A DNA stretch of 64,000 nt from Thuidium tamariscinum (lineage: Eukaryota; Streptophyta; Bryopsida; Hypnales; Thuidiaceae): positions 35,329,582 through 35,393,581 of the forward strand of contig OX344751.2 of NCBI GenBank assembly GCA_947034885.2, written 5' to 3'. The notes below the pieces were generated by a model. The model was given only the letters and a program-made list of their open reading frames with translations, ran no database searches and was not told where the DNA came from. This document shows, one piece after another, positions 12,105-46,614 of the stretch. The position numbers and the translations under genes were made by a program. Each line of letters starts with the position of its first letter. Position 1 is the first letter of the stretch.

Positions 12105-14479
12105 ATGCACAGTTTATTATCGAAGAACACGCACTTGAAGGGTTCAATGTCTAGTACCTACAGGATTAGGTTCAACTCTCTGACTGTTAACCGAAGGTGC
12201 AAATATATGGTGCAACGTTGGTGATAGTAGTAAGCATAGTGACGATGAAAGGAAGGAAGGTAGGGCCGTTGTGGTGAAATGTCATTTTCTTGCTCAGCGG
12301 TCTAGGCACTGTGGTGATCTTCGCCTGCTTGTGCGCCATGGATGTGAAACCCGGTCTCGGCTGGGCAAGAAAGTCAGCCGTGCTCAGAAATGTAAACCTC
12401 AAGGTGAAGATGGCAACATCAACTCCCCACAACAAACGAAGGACAACGAACGTCACCCGCGACCCTGCATGTCTAGCCAGAACGCAGCACCTCTTGTACC
12501 GGCGCTACCTTGACCGGTTCGCCCCGTCGCCAGCGTTCACGCGAGCATGGGATCGCTACGTGATGATGCACAAGGCATGCTCCCACAAAAAGAATTGGAC
12601 GAACGTTTTCCTTCACGAGCGAGACATGGCGGATGACTGCAATTACCTCATTGTCATGGAGGGCGCCCGGGGCCTGGGGAACAAGCTCTTGTCGTTGATG
12701 TCGGCGTTTGCATATGGGTTAGCGACCGACCGCGTTGTGCTGGTGGAGGGGCGAAAGCAGTTCAAGGATCTCTTGTGTGATAAATTTCCGGAGTCGTCGT
12801 GGTTCTTGCCAGAGGATTTCCCATACCAGAATGTGTCGGATGCTGAGGGTATCAATGTTGCCATCGAAAAGAATTTCACCGGTGTGAACATGGTGCTTCT
12901 CCGCCTCCACCACGTCCAGGTACTCAAAACATTAATCTCCAAACCATAACCAGCTTCAAAACAGAGGAATGATGCCGAGACTTGTCGGATCCATATGCTA
13001 ATTGATGGCGATGATGGTGTTGGGATGATTCAGTCGTGGGCAGACGGGCAATTTTTCTGCGGCCACACACACTTCGGCCTCATGAATGTGCGATGGCTGA
13101 GGTGGACAAGCAATCAGAACTATGTGACAAGGTTGATGATGGTGCCATCCCTATGGGAGCGTCTCAACCTGCTGTTCGCTCCCGAGGATGTTTTTACCAT
13201 CCTGAGTCACAAGCTGCTGCTTCCCAGGAACGAACTTTGGGCGCACATTGTCCGTCTCTACTTCGGATACCTCGCCGCATCGTCCAAGCGCGTTGGGGTG
13301 CAAGTGCGCCTCCACGGGTGTGAGAACCTCGCTGATTACGATCCTGCCGTTTTCGATCGCATCTTGGATTGCCTCCAAAGCCGTGAGGTACTTGCCACTA
13401 TCAGATCTCATTCTAATTCTCCCCTTTGATGCTAGCTCTCAATTTCCGCTGATGCTCTCCCTGGCGGCACTGACTATCAGATACTGCCAAAGCTGAAAAC
13501 GGAAGACGATGCATCAGACCTCATGTCGTTCGCCCGCAACGGATGGGAAGGCTCCACCGAAATCTCGGTGCTCGTCACATTACTGCAACTCCAGTACTAT
13601 GACGAAATAAAAGACTTGTCTGCCAGAAAACCGAATGTCAACAACACCGTCGTTCGTTTTCACATGGTCTCCCACTTGGTAAGTTCTAATCCCAATCCTC
13701 GGAGCCCTTGGCAGGGTTACCTTCCTCGATTGCCTTAGGATTGCGTTTTTTTCGATTCTATTCTCAAAGACTCTGTTCGTAGCTCCTAAAGAACCAAGAA
13801 TTCATGGATTTCAATGACCAATTCAATTGCAAAGTATATAATTCAGACAAGACCAAATCTTACATCCCCAGAATCGGACGTGAAAATTGCACACGTCGGT
13901 CAAGAAATAAAACAAAAGGTAGGTCCCATGTGACCTACTCAAAACTGCTAGATGAAAACACAAAACTCAATTTAGGCCTCCTGGTCCTTCCACGATTACG
14001 CTTGACGTTTACACACAAAATCCAAAATCTCTTATAACCGTTCGAATTATCACTGAGCTAAAAACCGAAGAACCGAAACCGTGAAAAGATTTCGTCTCCG
14101 TCCCTCATCACTATACTCACGACACTCCTGTCTGCAGGAAAGTCAAGACCAATCCGTCCATCAATCCCAAACGGCGTTCGTAGGGGTGTGGCTGCTGAGC
14201 TTCAGTGATGTGCTTCTCATAAGCTCCTATTCTACATTCGGATACATCCCGCAAGGGCTCGGAGGCTTGACACCATTGTACCTCAACACGAGAGGCGATG
14301 CGGCATCCGTGAGCTCTTGTTTTGATGGCGTGTCGACGCAACCGTGCACGCATTTCCCACAGAAACCGAAATGCGAAGGGGTTGCGGACAAGAATGAGGT
14401 GCACAGTGAGTGCATGCGGCACCATGTGCGAGAATGCGTGGACCACCGAGGGGGGGTTGCAACTGCTGGGAGAAGTTGA
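12105..14479 (+). CDS. GT37 family alpha-1,2-fucosyltransferase (xyloglucan/AGP fucosyltransferase-like), 4-5 exons
   Basis: This is a Golgi type II glycosyltransferase that transfers fucose from GDP-fucose to cell-wall glycans; the acceptor (xyloglucan, arabinogalactan protein or other) cannot be told from sequence. Exons I infer: 12105-12148 (tentative), 12298-12919, 13034-13387, 13481-13678, 14138-14479. All joins keep frame and give about 519 residues, typical of GT37. Motifs: GLGNKLLSLMSAF (about residues 140-152), the FFC region at the start of the third exon, the nucleotide-sugar motif KRVGVQVRLH (about 307-316), and SSYSTFGYIPQGLGGL near the C-terminus (about 435-450), followed by the usual Cys-rich tail. 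The 5' end is uncertain. The acceptor at 12290-12297 has a strong pyrimidine tract, and a hydrophobic segment GLGTVVIFACLCAM follows it as signal anchor. Joining it to the ATG at 12105 needs a weak donor (GTCTAG). Otherwise the first in-frame ATG is 12338, which would lose the anchor. The family assignment is firm; the 5' exon is inference. Confidence 0.92.
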
Positions 14480-22600: not shown

Positions 22601-25263
22601 CCTCAGATATTTTCTGTTCATTTAAGTAATAGAAAAAAAGTGGGCGCGTTTGGATGGTTTTGACCCGCACATTGGGCTGGGGTGCTGACACAGAGTGGTG
22701 GGTGCATCTCTCTCATATTCTGCAGCTGAAGACGCCTACATGGGACTGCCAGGTCAGCTTCTCTTAGCTCTTCCGTAGCTTTCAACCTAGTCTGCTTCCG
22801 GTGTAGCTATAAATGAAAAAGTGAAAGTGATACGAAGTATTCCTTAGCTTAGTGCGATTGTTCTCTTAGGTCCCTGTTAATTTATTTTCGTGACATTGTC
22901 TTCTTTTGCAGGACATATTTCGTCACTTACCAGTGCCAGACGTTCAACAGGAATTTAACCTGACGTCTAAGTTTATAAAGGAGGTAATGGAGAATGACAA
23001 AGAGCCTCCTCCGTACTTCTACGTCAGGCGCAGTATCCTTGCTTTTCAGCTTACTTAACGTTACTTTCTTCCCTTGATTTCTATCCTCTGGGACTTTGCC
23101 TGAGCTTGCCAGATGGCCTCCCGTTAATGTGTCATTCGTGACTGTTATACTGAGGTTGTAGCTTTCTGTTGTGTTGGTTTCAACTTATGTGAACTGCTGA
23201 TTGCCTAAAAACGAAATTCCTTTTAGATCACATGCTTGTGGCGTACAGTGCAGACGAGCTGCTACGACCGTTTTTAGTAGATGTTAAGGTCTCTTGACCC
23301 TGGAAGTGAGTCTAATTTGAATGCAAGGCTTTTCACTGGAAACTGTCCGCTTACACTGCCCGTAACTCTTAGGACGAATGAATCTTAGGTTTTTGTTATC
23401 GGTACTCTCGTCCTGTATTGTACTTTTTAAATTTTAGTGGTCTACGTGTTAAATTTCTGACCCTGTCTTGTATCCTGCAACTGCTTCTTGCCTAGTATGT
23501 AAATTGTAAATCATTATTGATTTTTGTTAAGGCTCTAGCGTCGGTTTTCTTGACCACGCTAAAGATGTATTTCTAGTAAAGAAGAAGCGTGATGATGCGG
23601 ATGACGGCGTTGGCTGCTCTTGCAAGTCAACGCAGGACGTGTGTGGGGATGACTGTGAATGCAGGTATGCACTCTGTTAGTTTAAGATAGTCAGATGCAA
23701 ATGTGCTACTTCTCCAAATGCTGTTTCCTTATCTCTGAGCTTGTTGTCAGCCTCCGTAAAGGGAAGTAAAACCCAGTATGCGGAAGTTGTGCGAGTTTTT
23801 AATTATGTGATATTGTGGGAAGGTAGGGTGCAGAGTATGAGTTGCTCCAAAGACTGTAAATGCTCACATAGGTGCACCAACAAACCGTTCCGTAAAGACA
23901 AACGCCTGAAGGTTTTCAAGGTGAGATTTTTGAATATGTTTTTGTGCCAGATGAGCGGTTATTTCAATTGGGTCCCGACTATCATAGATAAGCAGCGCCA
24001 CATGGATCTGTGGACGCTAACTTTGTGCCTTAGCGATCACTCATGCTAGACGTCTTATCTCTTCTCAATGGGTTCACTGGACATGCTTGATCTTGAGAAA
24101 GTTTTAATTTACCGAGGAATTCGCTGCAGATGTCGGGCAGATATTGTGAGATTCTTTCCTGTGTTGGGTTTTGGTGGGTCGCAACTATGTATCGACAGGG
24201 ATTTAGGAGAATTCTGGAGGTTTTGAGAGACGTAGTGGGAGGATGGGCCGTGGGAGTAACAGCAACTACAGTCTTTGTTTTTTTCTTCATTTCTAAATGT
24301 ACGTCATGGTCTACCATCATGGGTATTCTAATTTTTTTTAAATTCCAGACGGCATCTTGTGGCTGGGGTGCGTTTGCAGCAGAGGCCATCAAAAAGGATG
24401 AATTTATTATCGAGTACACAGGAGAAGGTAAGGCAGGAGTTTTTCAGTATTTGAAATTAAGTTTGATTCGTATAAAATTTGATTACGGTTGTCCAAAACC
24501 TCGCTTTCTCATTCAGAAGATGGTTACATCCAGTGCCCACGAAGTGACGTTCATGTCGATTTTGTTCGCGTGACAGTAATTGATGATGCCATGTGTGAGA
24601 AGCGACTGTGGGAGATGAAAGGGCGGCGAAGCATAAGCAATTTTTACATGTGTGAGATTGCGAAGGATTTTATCATTGATGCCACTAGGAAGGGCAATGC
24701 CTCTCGCTACCTCAACCACAGCTGTCAACCCAACTGCAGGCTCGAAAAATGGTTTGACCTTCTTTTTCTTGATTCGTTTGTTTCATATCTGAAGTACGAT
24801 ATGACGAGGATGAACGTTTAACAGATAATTCACTATGTGCAGGCGAGTGGATGGTGAAACTAGGGTGGGTGTTTTTGCTGGGAGAAACATTGCTGCCGGT
24901 GAAGAGCTCAATTATGATTACAAGTAATTTCTTTGAAGCCCTCCTTGACTTACTGGTACATGTGTAAGAGATGGAACTACGTATCGATGCTTGGTAGAGA
25001 ATGTCACCCATTGGTTCTTCTTGTGATATCAGTTATTTTATGATAGACTCTTCCTAGTTCGCACTTCCTGTTTCTTGAAGGTGTTCTGTTGAAAATTGTG
25101 CAGATATGTTGAGTTTGGGCCCAACGTGACATGCCGCTGCGGAGCTCCGAACTGTCGTGGTGCTATTGGGGAAAGATTCAACGCTAACCGAAAATCCAAC
25201 GCCAGCCTCCCTAAAAATTGGGGTTCTCAGCACAAGCGATCAACTTTAGCTCCGAGGAGATGA
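19620..25263 (+). CDS. ASHR3-like histone-lysine N-methyltransferase (double PHD-like zinc finger, AWS, SET, post-SET), 11 exons
   Basis: This is a nuclear protein expected to methylate histone lysines, closest in layout to Arabidopsis ASHR3. Inferred exons: 19620-19712, 20072-21241, 21577-21729, 22085-22252, 22912-23032, 23565-23664, 23827-23920, 24349-24427, 24577-24751, 24843-24923, 25104-25263. All are GT-AG and sum to 2394 nt, in frame, 797 residues. Residues 1-421 are an unrecognised, low-complexity acidic/serine-rich region. Zinc finger 1 (about 422-472) starts CFECKG and ends CPQH. Zinc finger 2 (about 473-528) starts CYACGKNRG and ends CWRH. The AWS cysteines lie at about 585-630 and include CRVQSMSCSKDCKC. 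The SET core follows, with GWGAFA, IIEYTGE, NHSCQPNC (cofactor/active site) and ELNYDY. The post-SET motif CRCGAPNCRG lies near the C-terminus. The donor at 21242 is weak (GTGGAG; 21248 is an in-frame alternative). The frame is open upstream of the ATG in its exon, so earlier coding exons are possible, for example near 18757-18827. Confidence 0.94.
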
Positions 25264-37355: not shown

Positions 37356-38602
37356 GTTGAGTCATTGGCTAGATAGGAAATTGCGATGTTGGGGCTCTCA
37401 CTTTTTGTGGAAGCAAAAGGGACTCTGAGCATTGGTTAACAATGTTATGGCCTACATTCCTTGCAACAATACAAACCCAACCCTGTTGTTGTATATATAA
37501 ACTCTGACCTAATCTGCATTGAACCATAAAACTTATCTGCCATAATTTGGGAGAGAATTCATGCAAACATTGCTTTAGATGGATGCCAAGTTATTTAGAT
37601 CCAACATTTTTCGATCTCCTAGAACATGGACCTCAAGCTGCTTGAAGTTGGGGTGAAGCTGCTTCTTGGGCTTCTCCACCTTTGTTGCATGCTAGAGCCA
37701 AATTAATTTTCTCTCAGCTAGCATGGGTGCAAACTCTGCTCCAACTTGTTCCTGGCTTATGATCTTCAATTGCATTAAATTTTGGGGCAAAATTGTGTCA
37801 TTCATCATTTCATGTAAAACTGAAAAAAATAAAAATGAGACTGAACTGATGTAGAGTTACTTATCATATTTCAAGAAATAGGTATGGACTGTTTTTTTAA
37901 AGTTGAATGCAGTAGTCACTAGAAGCATCCATCTCTTGAAATGTACCCCATTTGTACATTGTTTGTGGAATGAGAAAGTATAATTTACCCTACCCTTGCA
38001 TTAGAGGATGCTTTTATAATTTGTGTACTCTATGAATCTCCTACCTTACATTGAAGTTTCACAGGCCATACTTTGAAAAGAGTCAATGTCGTAAATTTCC
38101 ATCACTAAGGTGGATACATCCAAAGTCCCAAAAGCATCAGAAATTGAAATTGTACTTAGTTTCTATTATTAGATTGTTCAGATTTTCATAGTCTTGTTGG
38201 CAAGTAAAAACAAGTTCCAAACTTCAAATGCACTAAGGGAGGAGGCTCCAAAACCGCTCAGGCTCCAAAACCGCTCACCTTCTGAAATGTAATTTTCTGG
38301 TATATGATGCTTTTTGATCTTTACAGTAATGTACAACCAGTGAATATTTGAGGAGGTGGGCGGTTTTGGAGCCCTATGCCATATGGACTTCAGAAATTCA
38401 TAACTAATTCTACAGAGCTCCAAAAAATATGAAACGACTTGGGTTCGATGCCTATTCAAGCTGTCTTTCAAGAAAAATTCACTAAAAAATATTTCAAGAT
38501 GTTTGAGTTGCTCAAAACTCTGTTCCAGCCCTTAGATGGTCGGTTTATGGACCTCCTCCCTTAAAGAACACAACATTTGGACTCAGTAAGCAAAAGTTAT
38601 TA

Positions 38603-39424
38603 AAGGTTTGTTCCCACTTGCTGTTAGTTTTAATTTTAATGTCATTGAGATTACACGGGGCGTGTTTGCACAATGTCCCACATAGCCTCTTTTGTGGGCA
38701 GGGCTGGGATGTGGGCAGATTAAAGAAAATCGCTTGCCAGTACAAGGTTGCTCCACGGCCTGTGAAGACCCTGTAATCTGATTTGATTTTAGTTTAAATT
38801 TGATTTTTAGATCGAAGTATAAAAGAGTGTCAAGATTTTCAATGAAAAAGTTGAAACAATGATGTGGCTTTTGTTCCACATATTCCTCTTTTTGTGACAC
38901 TCTCTCATTGGAGTCTTTTAGCCAATCTTGAGATGATGTGGGAGAGGAGAGAAGCTGTTTATACAGTGGGGTAGTGGTGGGTGAAACAAACCATGTGGGA
39001 TATATGAATAAGGACAAAAAAGAACTACACTCATGGAAAAGTGAAAACGCAGGAATTGTGATAAAAGTTAAATTTCAGACCTCATTTAGACATAGTAGAC
39101 TATGTTTTTTCAAAAAACTTTAGACTAAGAAAAGTTGAGGAATCAAGTAAAATTTTATCTTCAAAAATCCATTTGATATTTCAATACTCTACCTAAAAGT
39201 TATGAACAAATTTCAAAGAAGGTGTTTGAAAATGCCCCAAAAAATGTCCCTTCCACCTCCCCTTTGGAATTTGTCTAAAACTTACATGAGGCTTCAAAAT
39301 CTCAAGCTAATTTTTAGCTTGCTTCTCTTACTTCTTTTAGTTCAATTTTTCTTTTAAGAAAGCTATTATACTATACCCAAATGAAGTCTCAAATTCAACT
39401 TTGAACACAATTCTTGCGTTTTCA
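38603..39424 (+). repeat. Left arm of a large inverted duplication
   Basis: This stretch of about 820 bp is repeated in reverse complement at 42541-43575 with high identity, including an identical 61-codon open frame on opposite strands. The inner end of the arm coincides with the end of a MITE-like element (39041-39425). The arms are about 3.1 kb apart and are long enough to fold or recombine. Confidence 0.9.
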
Positions 39425-42923: not shown

Positions 42924-43575
42924 TTTCCATGAGTGTAGTTCTTTTTTGTCCTTATTCATATATCCCACATGGTTTGTTTCACCCACCACTACCCCACTGT
43001 ATAAACAGCTTCTCTCCTCTCCCACATCATCTCAAGATTGGCTAAAAGACTCCAATGAGAGAGTGTCACAAAAAGAGGAATATGTGGAACAAAAGCCACA
43101 TCATTGTTTCAACTTTTTCATTGAAAATCTTGACACTCTTTTATACTTCAATCTAAAAATCAAATTTAAACTAAAATCAAATCAGATTACAGGGTCCTCA
43201 CAGGCCGTGGAGCAACCCTGTACCAGCAAGCAATTTTCTTTAACCCTTAAACGACGCCCAAGCCATTTTCTGGTCGATGAACTTCAGGGAATCTTTCTAT
43301 GTAGGACAGAATTGCAATCATTCATCCTCGGAATTAGGGGTGGAAAAGAAAGATCTTCTATAGTGCTTTGACTTCCAACATGTGTTTTTAGATTTTTTTG
43401 AACCAATGATTCCCACGATATCAAAATTCCTCAATTCCACGACCATGGGTTCCTCGTTTAGGGGTTAATCTACCCACATCCTAGCCCTGCCCACGAAAGA
43501 GGCTATGTGGGACATTGTGCAAACACGCCCCTACAATGCCAAAATAAAAACTAACTGCAAGTGGGAACAGACCTT
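42541..43575 (-). repeat. Right arm of the large inverted duplication
   Basis: This is the reverse complement of 38603-39424, with one extra 225-bp block that is MITE B2 plus its TTAA duplication. Otherwise the arms differ by scattered substitutions, heavier near the outer end (43490-43575). Confidence 0.9.
43244..43464. mobile_element. Family B TTAA-inserting MITE, copy B2 (221 bp)
   Basis: It is inserted in the right arm of the large inverted duplication. TTAA flanks both ends, with termini CCCTTAAACGA and TCGTTTAGGGG. The left arm of the duplication shows the unfilled site with a single TTAA (around 38724), so the insertion is certain. Internal GATCTTCTATAGTGCTTTGA is shared with B1. Confidence 0.92.
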
Positions 43576-44591
43576 AAGGCTCAAAGTTTATTTCTGATTT
43601 TGGCCATCTACAGTCAGTGTACAGAATCTGTAGATGCCGTTTTAAGGTCAGCTGCACGTACTTTTGGGTGTATACACTATATAACGAAATAGAAATTCTT
43701 CAATGGACCGCGCGCGCAGCAGGATGCATGAATCGCTGAGAGTGTTGTCACCTCTTCCCCATCTCAACTTTTTGGGGATTGAATTAATTTTCAGGTGTGC
43801 AACTGTGCACCCAGATGGCCAGATTGGGATCCTACAGTGCAACTCCAATGAATGTTCAGCCTGATTTTTCAATTTCGTACGTACGAATCTGCTGAAAAGA
43901 GCAATCAAGATGATTAATATTTTAAAAAATTACTTGAATTTACACCTTGAAGTGCGGTCACACAATCATTAGTACGTGAAGCGGCTGCAGGAAATTATAT
44001 ATTGAAGGCACATAATACTATTTGCATCACGATATGCTTCATTGTTTACCCAAACGAATATTTGCAGACACCCCAATGAAAAATGAAAACAGATCAGAAA
44101 GGCTGCCATATATATGCGGAATTATATTATATTAATTGTAAAGCCGACTGATTGAGCTCCTTTGTGATTATTCAAGTAGAAATAGCCTACTGCACATCCT
44201 TTTTCTAAACTCAAATAATCCAAGGTGTTCATCGGCTACCGACGCTCAGAGACTACTGAAGAACTTCTGCACTAGCTCCGACAAACAATTGAGTTCCTCA
44301 ATCAAATGTTGGTCAATCGAGCCGCTTAATACAGTGACAGAGTCATCTGAGGTCTATTTGTATTCTAAACTGAAAGGGAGTACGTAGTTTTCTTCTTTGC
44401 CTGATTACCAATTAGTACTTGTCAAATCCCTCCTGCAAGAAGAAAGAGATTGATACAATTGAGATGCAATTCAGATGCAATTCTTCAGCAAGAATTCATC
44501 GTTTTACTGCAGGAATTCTTTTTCTGCTCGATCTCTGAAACCATGTCTACATTAGCAGCAGCAGCAGCCACCAGAAGGTGACTGGGATGGG
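43576..44591. other. Spacer downstream of the HypX-like gene
   Basis: Transition from AT-rich repeats to the GC-rich gene. It should include the 3' untranslated region; a short GCT microsatellite lies at 44560-44573. No gene seen. Confidence 0.6.
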
Positions 44592-46614
44592 TCAGGTCGC
44601 GGGCCAACTCAGCTCCACCTGGCACGACAAAGTCCCGGCGGATTTGTAAACGAAGTCTCGTCGCTTTTGGTTGTATATCTCAGACGCAAAGCAAGCCTGC
44701 ATCTGCACAAGCTCGTCGCGGCGATGCTCACGAAGTCGATCCTCCAATGCTCGCAAGCCGTGACGCTTCTCGGCGATCAGAGCATCGCACTGCTTGCCTT
44801 TGCTGATCTTCTCCGCCCGCTCGATCACGCTCTCCACGAAACCCAAGCTCGACGGTGACAGCACGGCGTCGATCAAGCCCAAGCGCTGAGCCTCCGACGC
44901 CGACACAGGATTCACGCTGGTCACCAGCTGGGCGGCGACTTCCTCGCCCACGCGCTTCGGCAGGCTGTGCGTCCAGTACTCCGAGCCGAACAGCTCCATC
45001 GGCTTGTAGCTCGGGTGCAAAACCACGTTGCGGTGAGCCCACACCATGTCTGCCGCAAGGGCGGCCATCACGCCGCCCGCGCCGGCGTTGCCCAACATGG
45101 CCGACACTGTCACGCGCTGGCTGCACGTCAAGACGCGGAGCACCACGTCGTCGATGGCGTTGATGTTCTCCCACGACTCGTGCACGGGGTCCGACGCCGC
45201 CTCGATGGTGTTGAGGTGGATGCCGTTGCTGAAGAAGTTGATGCCGCCCATGAGCACCAGCACCTTGCTGGGGCACTCGCGGTCCAAGTGGTCCAGCGCT
45301 CGACACAAGCGGCGGCACTGATCCGTGCTCATGGCACCGTTGTAGAAGTCGAACCACAGGTACGTCACGTCGTTCTTGGTCCAGTAGAAAATCTCCTGGA
45401 ACGTCTGCGGCCATGTCCCCATGGGAAGCTTCAGCGCCGGTGCCTTCAAGTGGGCCAGGGTCGCGACCGGCCACAGACGGCGGAAGCGCTGCCACGGCGG
45501 GTACTTTGATGGACTTTACGTTTTTCTTGAGGTGCGTGACCCACATCGCCGTCCCGCCTCCACAGCGAATCAAAACGGCGCCGTCGCGCTGGCCCAAAAT
45601 CTCCTTCGGACCTTTGGAACCGGAGTGAAGCTCCGGCGGGTTGGATTCCACATGCGCGCCGAACAACAGAAACTTCTCGTTCGCCACCACGGACAGCGTG
45701 CCGGGTTGCGAGTCCCCTGCGCGAACGACCGTGGCAAGGTCCTCCGCGGGAAGCTCCCAGTCGAGGCGACGATCCGCTTGCAGCAGCTTGGGCCGCAGGG
45801 AGCCTCTGACGCGGGGGTTCGAGTAATCGAGCGGTCGCGGGGGCACATTGTGTCTGAGGTTGAAGAGCACCTCGTCGATGCAGCGCATGGCGGCGTCCAC
45901 GCACTCGATCCGGTACAGCGAAGACTTCGTTGGCTCTTGTCCCAGGGCACGGCGGATGCGGAAGTTGCAGGTGGCCCAGATGGGTCCTGCGTCCATCTCC
46001 TCCTCCGCTTGCAAAATGGTGACGCCCCACTCGCGCTGTTTCTCCTGCAACGCCCAGTCGATGGACGACATGCCGCGGTCGCCTTCGATGCCCGGGTGGA
46101 CGACCAGGCACGGCACATCGGCGCTGTAGATTTCTCGCGGTATGCGCTTCGTGAGGAACGGGCAGAGAATGACGTCGGGCTTGAGCTTGTCCACGGCGGC
46201 GATCATGGAGTCGCCGTCCTTGAAAACGTGCACTATCACCTGGTGGCCACTTTCTCGCAGCTTGAGCGACGCTCGTTGCGCCATCGAGTTGAAGGCATCG
46301 CACACCAACAAGAAGCAGAGCCTCGTTTCGGGTGGCGTGGGAACCAGCACGGCCGCATCAGATGCCTCCGAATCATATCCACTCGACATCGAACCACTCG
46401 CAATTCGGCCAGAGGAGGTCCCTCCGTGGGCGCTTCGTGTCGATGTCGATTGGCCCCAGCCCTTGAAACTGTAACCATGATATGTCGTCGAACTCGAAGC
46501 AACCTTGGTAAGCGTCATCTGCTGAGCACTTGAATTCCCAGTGCTTGTCGCGACAGACACCACTCTCGAGCATGCTAGCGCCATCGACGTCTGGTTGAGC
46601 GGCATGGTATTCAT
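44592..46614 (-). CDS. HypX/HoxX-like formyltransferase-crotonase fusion protein, two exons
   Basis: Bacterial HypX takes a formyl group from 10-formyl-THF to a CoA thioester with its N-terminal domain and releases CO with its crotonase-like C-terminal domain, supplying the CO ligand of [NiFe]-hydrogenase. Exon 1 is 46614-45520 and exon 2 is 45443-44592, joined across a 76-nt GTAAAG...GAAG intron that keeps frame and rebuilds the conserved THLK...LKLP junction; 648 residues. Residues 1 to about 95 are a Ser/Thr/Ala-rich extension absent from bacterial HypX, possibly an organelle transit peptide. Formyltransferase features: VVHPGIEGDRG with His at about 173, and EEMDAGPIW with Asp at about 208. 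Crotonase features: FDFYNGAMS (about 398-406), FFSNGIHLN (435-443), GNAGAGGV (483-490) and GSEYWT (518-523). No stops or frameshifts break either domain. The start is the ATG at 46614; the frame is open only a little farther, with no other ATG. GC content is far above the flanks. The true substrate in this organism is unknown. Confidence 0.94.
45444..45519 (-). other. 76-nt spliceosomal intron in the HypX-like gene
   Basis: The two large open frames of the gene differ by one base. The donor reads AAC|GTAAAG at 45519 and the acceptor TTGAAG|GC at 45444. Removing 76 nt (1 mod 3) joins the frames exactly. It also places WVTHLKKN next to APALKLPM, matching the HypX pattern THLK followed by KLP. 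The pyrimidine tract is poor, and an acceptor 15 nt further on is also in frame. Confidence 0.75.

Follow-up and report, generated by a model that had tools for sequence, protein, structure and literature searches.

What is a gene of the HypX/HoxX type, described in a review (PMC12134894) as a helper in building the [NiFe]-hydrogenase of aerobic bacteria, doing in the DNA of a moss? The question is raised by a stretch of 64,000 nucleotides (nt) of Thuidium tamariscinum (contig OX344751.2, positions 35,329,582 to 35,393,581; hereafter the window), in which a formyltransferase part and then a crotonase part are encoded on the minus strand (46614–44592) in two overlapping frames. An earlier note, made from the sequence alone, had taken this locus for an intron-split gene of a HypX-type enzyme forming carbon monoxide (CO). 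The enzyme family, the fold, the catalytic residues, a second gene copy outside the window, the frameshifts in the copy within it, and the lack of matches to HypD and to the hydrogenase large subunit in the genome were computed directly. The best reading of the window locus is that it duplicates a functional HypX-type gene of the moss and was broken only recently, being apparently silenced by frameshift; judged from sequence comparison, the intact gene quite probably codes for a hydrogenase-independent HypX-type CO synthase with a likely place in an organelle.

A HypX-type gene in two copies

The features of the window copy, all on the minus strand, are as follows.
44592..46614: frameshifted HypX-type gene copy, which starts with the ATG at 46614 and is ended by the stop that a 2-nt insertion creates (open reading frames, Pfam, alignment to the intact copy)
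46341..46614: N-terminal extension, Ser/Thr-rich, putatively targeting-peptide-like (alignment to the intact copy)
45532..46209: formyltransferase part, with Formyl_trans_N at 46209–45952 and Formyl_trans_C at 45786–45532 (Pfam)
45469..45472 (about): 4 extra nt in the linker between the domains, as compared with the intact copy; this break of the frame was earlier taken for an intron (alignment)
44682..45335: crotonase (enoyl-CoA hydratase/isomerase) part, in the second frame (Pfam)
44593..44594: 2-nt insertion creating the stop at 44592 (alignment to the intact copy)
44485..44592: C-terminal tail as encoded in the ancestral frame, no longer in frame; its end coincides with the stop position in the intact copy (alignment)

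The N-terminal part matched Formyl_trans_N (1.7e-10) and Formyl_trans_C (1.4e-10), and the C-terminal part ECH_1 (6e-20). Among solved structures, Aquifex HypX/HoxX was the best match of both, with 155 bits versus 40 for the next family (N part) and 190 versus 39 (C part); the full-length relative P0002 aligned to HypX over residues 23–568 with 358 bits, the next protein scoring 41. These scores exclude a chance match, and they also rule out an ordinary plant formyltransferase or crotonase, an outcome which the earlier note had named as fatal to its claim. The hydrolase domain of 10-formyl-tetrahydrofolate dehydrogenase, ArnA, Fmt and enoyl-CoA hydratases each correspond to one of the two HypX domains, and matched much more weakly and over that domain only. 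The two-domain chain is present in relatives, as judged by Pfam, and in the intact copy, as judged by its continuous frame and alignment; the note's statement that the domains are present with their motifs and joined as in bacteria thus holds in full for the intact copy, while in the window copy both are present but split over two frames.

According to the same review, the formation of CO from 10-formyl-tetrahydrofolate via formyl-CoA by HypX has since been demonstrated (PMC12134894). Residues H74, D80 and D109 (Aquifex numbering) are assigned to formyl transfer to CoA, and Y416 and E426 to decarbonylation (PMC6802093). All five are conserved in every sequence aligned (29 of 29 on the eukaryote side, 12 of 12 from bacteria); the two window pieces together hold all of them, and they were read by eye in the translation of the intact copy. 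The AlphaFold model of the nearest relative, P0143, which shows 90% identity with the intact copy across 693 amino acids, has a per-residue confidence (pLDDT) of ≥90 at 497 of 697 residues, with residues 1–85 disordered, and in a structure search matched HypX entries first, over the whole chain and ahead of single-domain relatives. Structure alignments with the Aquifex (6J0P) and Ralstonia HypX/HoxX proteins revealed the same domain order, fold and five catalytic residues at about 36–38% identity over the mature protein. Sequence, domain order, catalytic residues and modelled fold all mark the moss protein as HypX-type. It differs from the HypX/HoxX proteins of aerobic [NiFe]-hydrogenase maturation in that its gene is nuclear, N-terminally extended and found in a genome without a HypD or large-subunit match, the window copy being frameshifted besides.

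A search of the moss genome (363,211,507 bases in 19 contigs, the window being C3:35329582-35393581) with Ceratodon HypX yielded three matches, namely the two window pieces and one stop-free frame on the other strand (C3:35404121-35406130). The latter belongs to the intact copy (C3:35404118-35406247), a single exon of 709 codons that lies 10.5 kb past the window end, some 28 kb away from the window copy. The mature parts of the two copies are 97% identical (46 of 1739 bases differ), with a ratio of nonsynonymous to synonymous substitution rates (dN/dS) of 0.18 (0.12 in the N-terminal and 0.25 in the C-terminal half). In the N-terminal extension, only 174 of 271 aligned nt are the same in both copies, identity rising sharply at about 46341–46321; P0143 has the N-terminus of the intact copy. 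The diverged extension, the sharp step and the near-identical remainder would all follow if the gene had been duplicated long ago and the mature part later homogenised by gene conversion. With P0143 used to polarise them, 11 of the 17 residue changes are assigned to the window copy and 6 to the intact copy, and one of the former hits a proline kept in seven of seven compared moss rows. Changes on the window side versus the P0143 side number 5:5 in the N-terminal and 12:4 in the C-terminal half, which is no more than suggestive of relaxed constraint after the break.

The frame is continuous across the domain junction in the intact copy and in P0002–P0005 (76–85% identical over the covered part), Ceratodon P0141 and P0143, whereas the window copy lacks an open frame owing to its 4-nt and 2-nt insertions. 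Since the intact copy and relatives have coding sequence at this place, and the window copy bears a 4-nt insertion, the intron of the earlier note gives way to a frameshift in a duplicate. A short junction intron that restores the frame, at the cost of part of the linker, is very improbable: a 76-nt GT...AG stretch of fitting length does lie at the junction, but the 321 bases examined contain 27 GT/AG pairs of fitting length, so that one such pair is uninformative, and the stretch is part of the coding sequence for both the intact copy and the Ceratodon protein; it encodes K-x-P-A, which is kept also in seven of eight bacterial rows of alignment A2. A better case can be made for the view that the plant itself has an undamaged window copy, the insertions being assembly errors, so that the moss has two working HypX genes. 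Both frames are open and constrained at the dN/dS given above, all catalytic residues are kept, and neither piece contains an internal stop; indeed, with so low a ratio, either the window copy stayed under constraint up to the recent past or its insertions are errors. Nevertheless, this view has to treat as errors two distinct insertions, each breaking the frame, that neither the copy 28 kb away nor the relatives contain, and it leaves the excess of window-side changes, including that at the conserved moss proline, to be accounted for; we regard it as rather unlikely. The prospect of bacterial contamination, which would have undone the earlier note, is negligible. The gene has a G+C content of 61.6%, as against 31–39% in its 5-kb flanks, but two copies lie within the same contig of 47.4 Mb, the window also holds plant genes (a xyloglucan fucosyltransferase, PF03254, and SET-domain pieces, by Pfam), and mosses supply the closest relatives, among them the Ceratodon gene on its contig of 17.5 Mb, with no named bacterium on the same side of the tree. 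The placement in plant nuclear DNA thus stands.

As to the remainder of the window, the xyloglucan fucosyltransferase (12290–13429) is present as two same-frame pieces with a stop between them, representing an intron or another broken gene, and a SET-domain exon of a histone-methyltransferase-like gene is located at 24489–24821. Inverted copies of an open reading frame, with about 90 N-terminal residues in common, occur at 38583–39017 (minus strand) and 42946–43371 (plus strand), forming a repeated element beside the HypX copy.

HypX apart from hydrogenase

Six-frame searches of the moss genome for HypD (PF01924; controls positive in 4 of 14 genomes) and for the NiFe large subunit (PF00374; controls positive in 5 of 14 genomes) gave no match; they covered these two proteins rather than HypC, HypF and HypA, and an intron-split gene could escape them. 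The absence of other Hyp or hydrogenase genes, noted earlier for the window, is hereby extended to the genome for HypD and the large subunit. As neither HypD nor a hydrogenase to receive the CO was found, a role of moss HypX other than hydrogenase maturation follows, in agreement with the earlier suggestion.

In bacteria, 80 HypX loci were sampled from at least 594 relatives obtained in a genome scan (a contig scan of genomes with P0002 alone as query had returned no relative). Flanking matches to one of eight hyp/hydrogenase proteins were present in 25 of the 80 loci (16 of the 54 loci longer than 17 kb), a count that may be high because HypE and HypB as queries matched nothing beyond general Pfam families. 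In a whole-genome search for HypD in 30 of the bacterial genomes, some of them draft metagenome bins, HypD was found in all three with hyp genes beside HypX, and in 12 of the 27 without; the 15 lacking it include Peribacillus, Marinomonas, a Lysobacter, a Nonomuraea and three Pseudomonas. HypX without HypD seems common in this bacterial sample.

A protein with an MHYT domain, a proposed sensor of diatomic gases, adjoins HypX or lies one gene off, on the same strand, in 6 of 55 bacterial loci without hyp genes and in none of 25 with them (L003:9745-12168, L004:2828-5326, L008:3234-6029, L022:7146-7916 and L028:167-925, Pfam-checked; L064:9649-10518, by tblastn only). This neighbourhood suggests CO as a signal in these loci, possibly with a CO-making and CO-sensing pair. 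In Shewanella canadensis, a gene for an acyl-CoA dehydrogenase-like protein is located downstream of HypX (L013:10041-11843).

A eukaryotic branch of HypX

HypX sequences turned up in a range of eukaryotes, each search list comprising the best 120 matches. Among the matches listed were plants, protists and algae (Ceratodon, the liverwort Calypogeia, Chara with two, Plasmodiophora and the brown alga Ascophyllum), four cnidarian genera (Hydra, Nematostella, Oculina, Montipora) and other animals (Trichoplax, the amphioxus Branchiostoma, the molluscs Sinanodonta, Potamilus and Pinctada, the rotifers Rotaria and Adineta, Hypsibius and Bradysia). Many are encoded on megabase contigs, for example of 22 Mb in Nematostella, 74 Mb in Hydra and 17.5 Mb in Ceratodon, whose KC19_9G128500 is the closest named gene.

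In a FastTree phylogeny of 279 rows, every named eukaryote fell into one group (support 1.0, stem 0.26), one large subgroup of which is known by 40 listed names. IQ-TREE (LG+C20) separated 51 eukaryote-side from 50 bacterial rows with a Shimodaira-Hasegawa-like approximate likelihood ratio (SH-aLRT) of 99, a result that is circular insofar as some rows had been labelled from the FastTree tree; with 31 eukaryote-side rows (the window copy and nine others being unnamed) against 16 named bacteria, support was 99.8. No named bacterium was placed on the moss side of the trees. The animal entries called "hydrogenase maturation factor HoxX-like" and the entries from Ceratodon, Chara and Calypogeia, which are unnamed or named by similarity only, belong to the same eukaryotic branch as moss HypX. 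A plant clade inside bacterial HypX, as envisaged in the earlier note as a sign of old transfer, was not recovered: plants lie within the wider eukaryotic group, one branch (SH-aLRT 99) from the sampled bacterial HypX, which leaves a recent transfer from a bacterium to plants unsupported. The view that plants are not known to have HypX has to be modified, since records from Ceratodon, Calypogeia and Chara are already public; it stands in that they are unnamed or unaccompanied by a study in the literature searched. We recognised no study of eukaryotic HypX/HoxX in that literature, which was judged mostly from titles and the beginnings of abstracts and mostly did not extend to subscription journals and preprints, and a search on CO, moss and heme oxygenase gave nothing relevant among the matches listed.

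In approximately unbiased (AU) tests, plants as one clade were not rejected (p-AU 0.486), whereas animals as one clade were (p-AU 7.6e-33; 11 rows, of which P0010 is unnamed). The HypX proteins of the tardigrade Hypsibius and the fungus gnat Bradysia (P0020 and P0007) fall with plants and protists, the rotifers being placed apart. Since tardigrades and fungus gnats can live in moss, transfer of HypX between eukaryotes, involving tardigrade, gnat and moss, may be worth considering. HypX may be old in eukaryotes and patchily kept, or may have moved between them; the data fit either.

Function and wider meaning

The N-terminal extensions of the window copy, Ceratodon HypX and P0143 (94–99 amino acids) are Ser/Thr-rich and acid-poor, with no acidic residue in the first 50 amino acids of the window copy, and those of several animal HypX proteins are Arg-rich. 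This residue composition suggests import into organelles, either plastids or mitochondria. The intact moss protein would most likely be imported into an organelle, where its N-terminal domain (His-Asp-Asp triad) would transfer the formyl group of 10-formyl-tetrahydrofolate to CoA, and its crotonase domain (Tyr/Glu pair) would split formyl-CoA into CO and CoA. The enzyme belongs to the eukaryotic HypX branch and would have no [NiFe]-hydrogenase to supply; its purpose might be the production of CO, whether as product or as signal, or else the disposal of one-carbon units with release of tetrahydrofolate, and of the two we favour CO as product.

The connection with folate is underlined by proteins in which FolD follows HypX in one chain. 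Such fusions, Pfam-checked, occur in Ascophyllum, Rotaria, a EukProt protein and three metagenomic proteins (P0136, P0130, P0190, P0179, P0159, P0158); more were found by precomputed domains, and one in a Chloroflexi bin by tblastn (L018:2368-3222). FolD makes 10-formyl-tetrahydrofolate, so that substrate supply would be built into these chains. The HypX part, which is homologous to the moss protein, has the catalytic residues in all five eukaryotic fusions examined; the moss proteins scanned, P0143 and P0141, have no FolD. The FolD motif VQ[LM]P[LI]P was seen in 8 of 12 fusions, a crude check not used as support. These fusions and the organelle-like extensions, which place HypX in folate metabolism, are what speaks for an enzyme mainly concerned with one-carbon disposal or formyl-CoA handling, i.e., with freeing tetrahydrofolate or releasing formate, CO being a by-product or not made at all. 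We consider such a role possible, if less probable than CO synthesis, because the Tyr/Glu pair tied to bacterial CO formation (PMC6802093) is kept in every one of the eukaryote-side sequences aligned, and because bacterial HypX genes without hydrogenase neighbours repeatedly lie beside those for MHYT signalling proteins.

Several observations weigh against a hydrogenase-independent, organellar CO synthase with a broken twin in the window. The activity of all eukaryotic members is deduced from sequence comparison; R9 of the basic patch is replaced by Ala in mosses and likewise in several bacterial HypX proteins, and R131, S194 and Q195 vary in animals and in some fusions, that of Ascophyllum included. 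The extensions are uneven, that of Calypogeia being 19 residues long, four of them acidic, P0003 and P0146 having three acidic residues in the first 50, and Hydra and Bradysia HypX having little or no extension. The dN/dS value fits assembly errors as well, and the reach of the hydrogenase searches, as given above, belongs here too.

CO occurs in the bladders of brown algae, and that of siphonophore floats reportedly derives, according to Wittenberg's work, from serine carbon via folate; we know of no enzyme identified as its source. Secretion of CO by siphonophore gas glands is described in PMC6820529 and PMC3916360, and the references of the former include Wittenberg 1960 on the Physalia CO source and Wittenberg and others 1962 on gland folates. 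If moss HypX is indeed a CO synthase, the HypX family would be an obvious candidate for the CO-making enzyme of the floats, because HypX uses formyl-folate and occurs in four cnidarian genera. The cnidarian sequences and the Ascophyllum FolD fusion fit the idea for floats and bladders; no siphonophore sequence is among those identified. We tentatively propose, as a possible rather than an established view, an overlooked eukaryotic organellar family that makes CO from folate one-carbon units without heme oxygenase or hydrogenase and is the source of CO in siphonophore floats, perhaps also in the bladders of brown algae, mosses keeping a working copy of which the window holds the broken twin. 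The retention of HypX with its catalytic residues in eukaryotes and bacteria showing no HypD would mean that CO formation from folate is a function in itself, and the old question of the siphonophore CO source would become directly testable.
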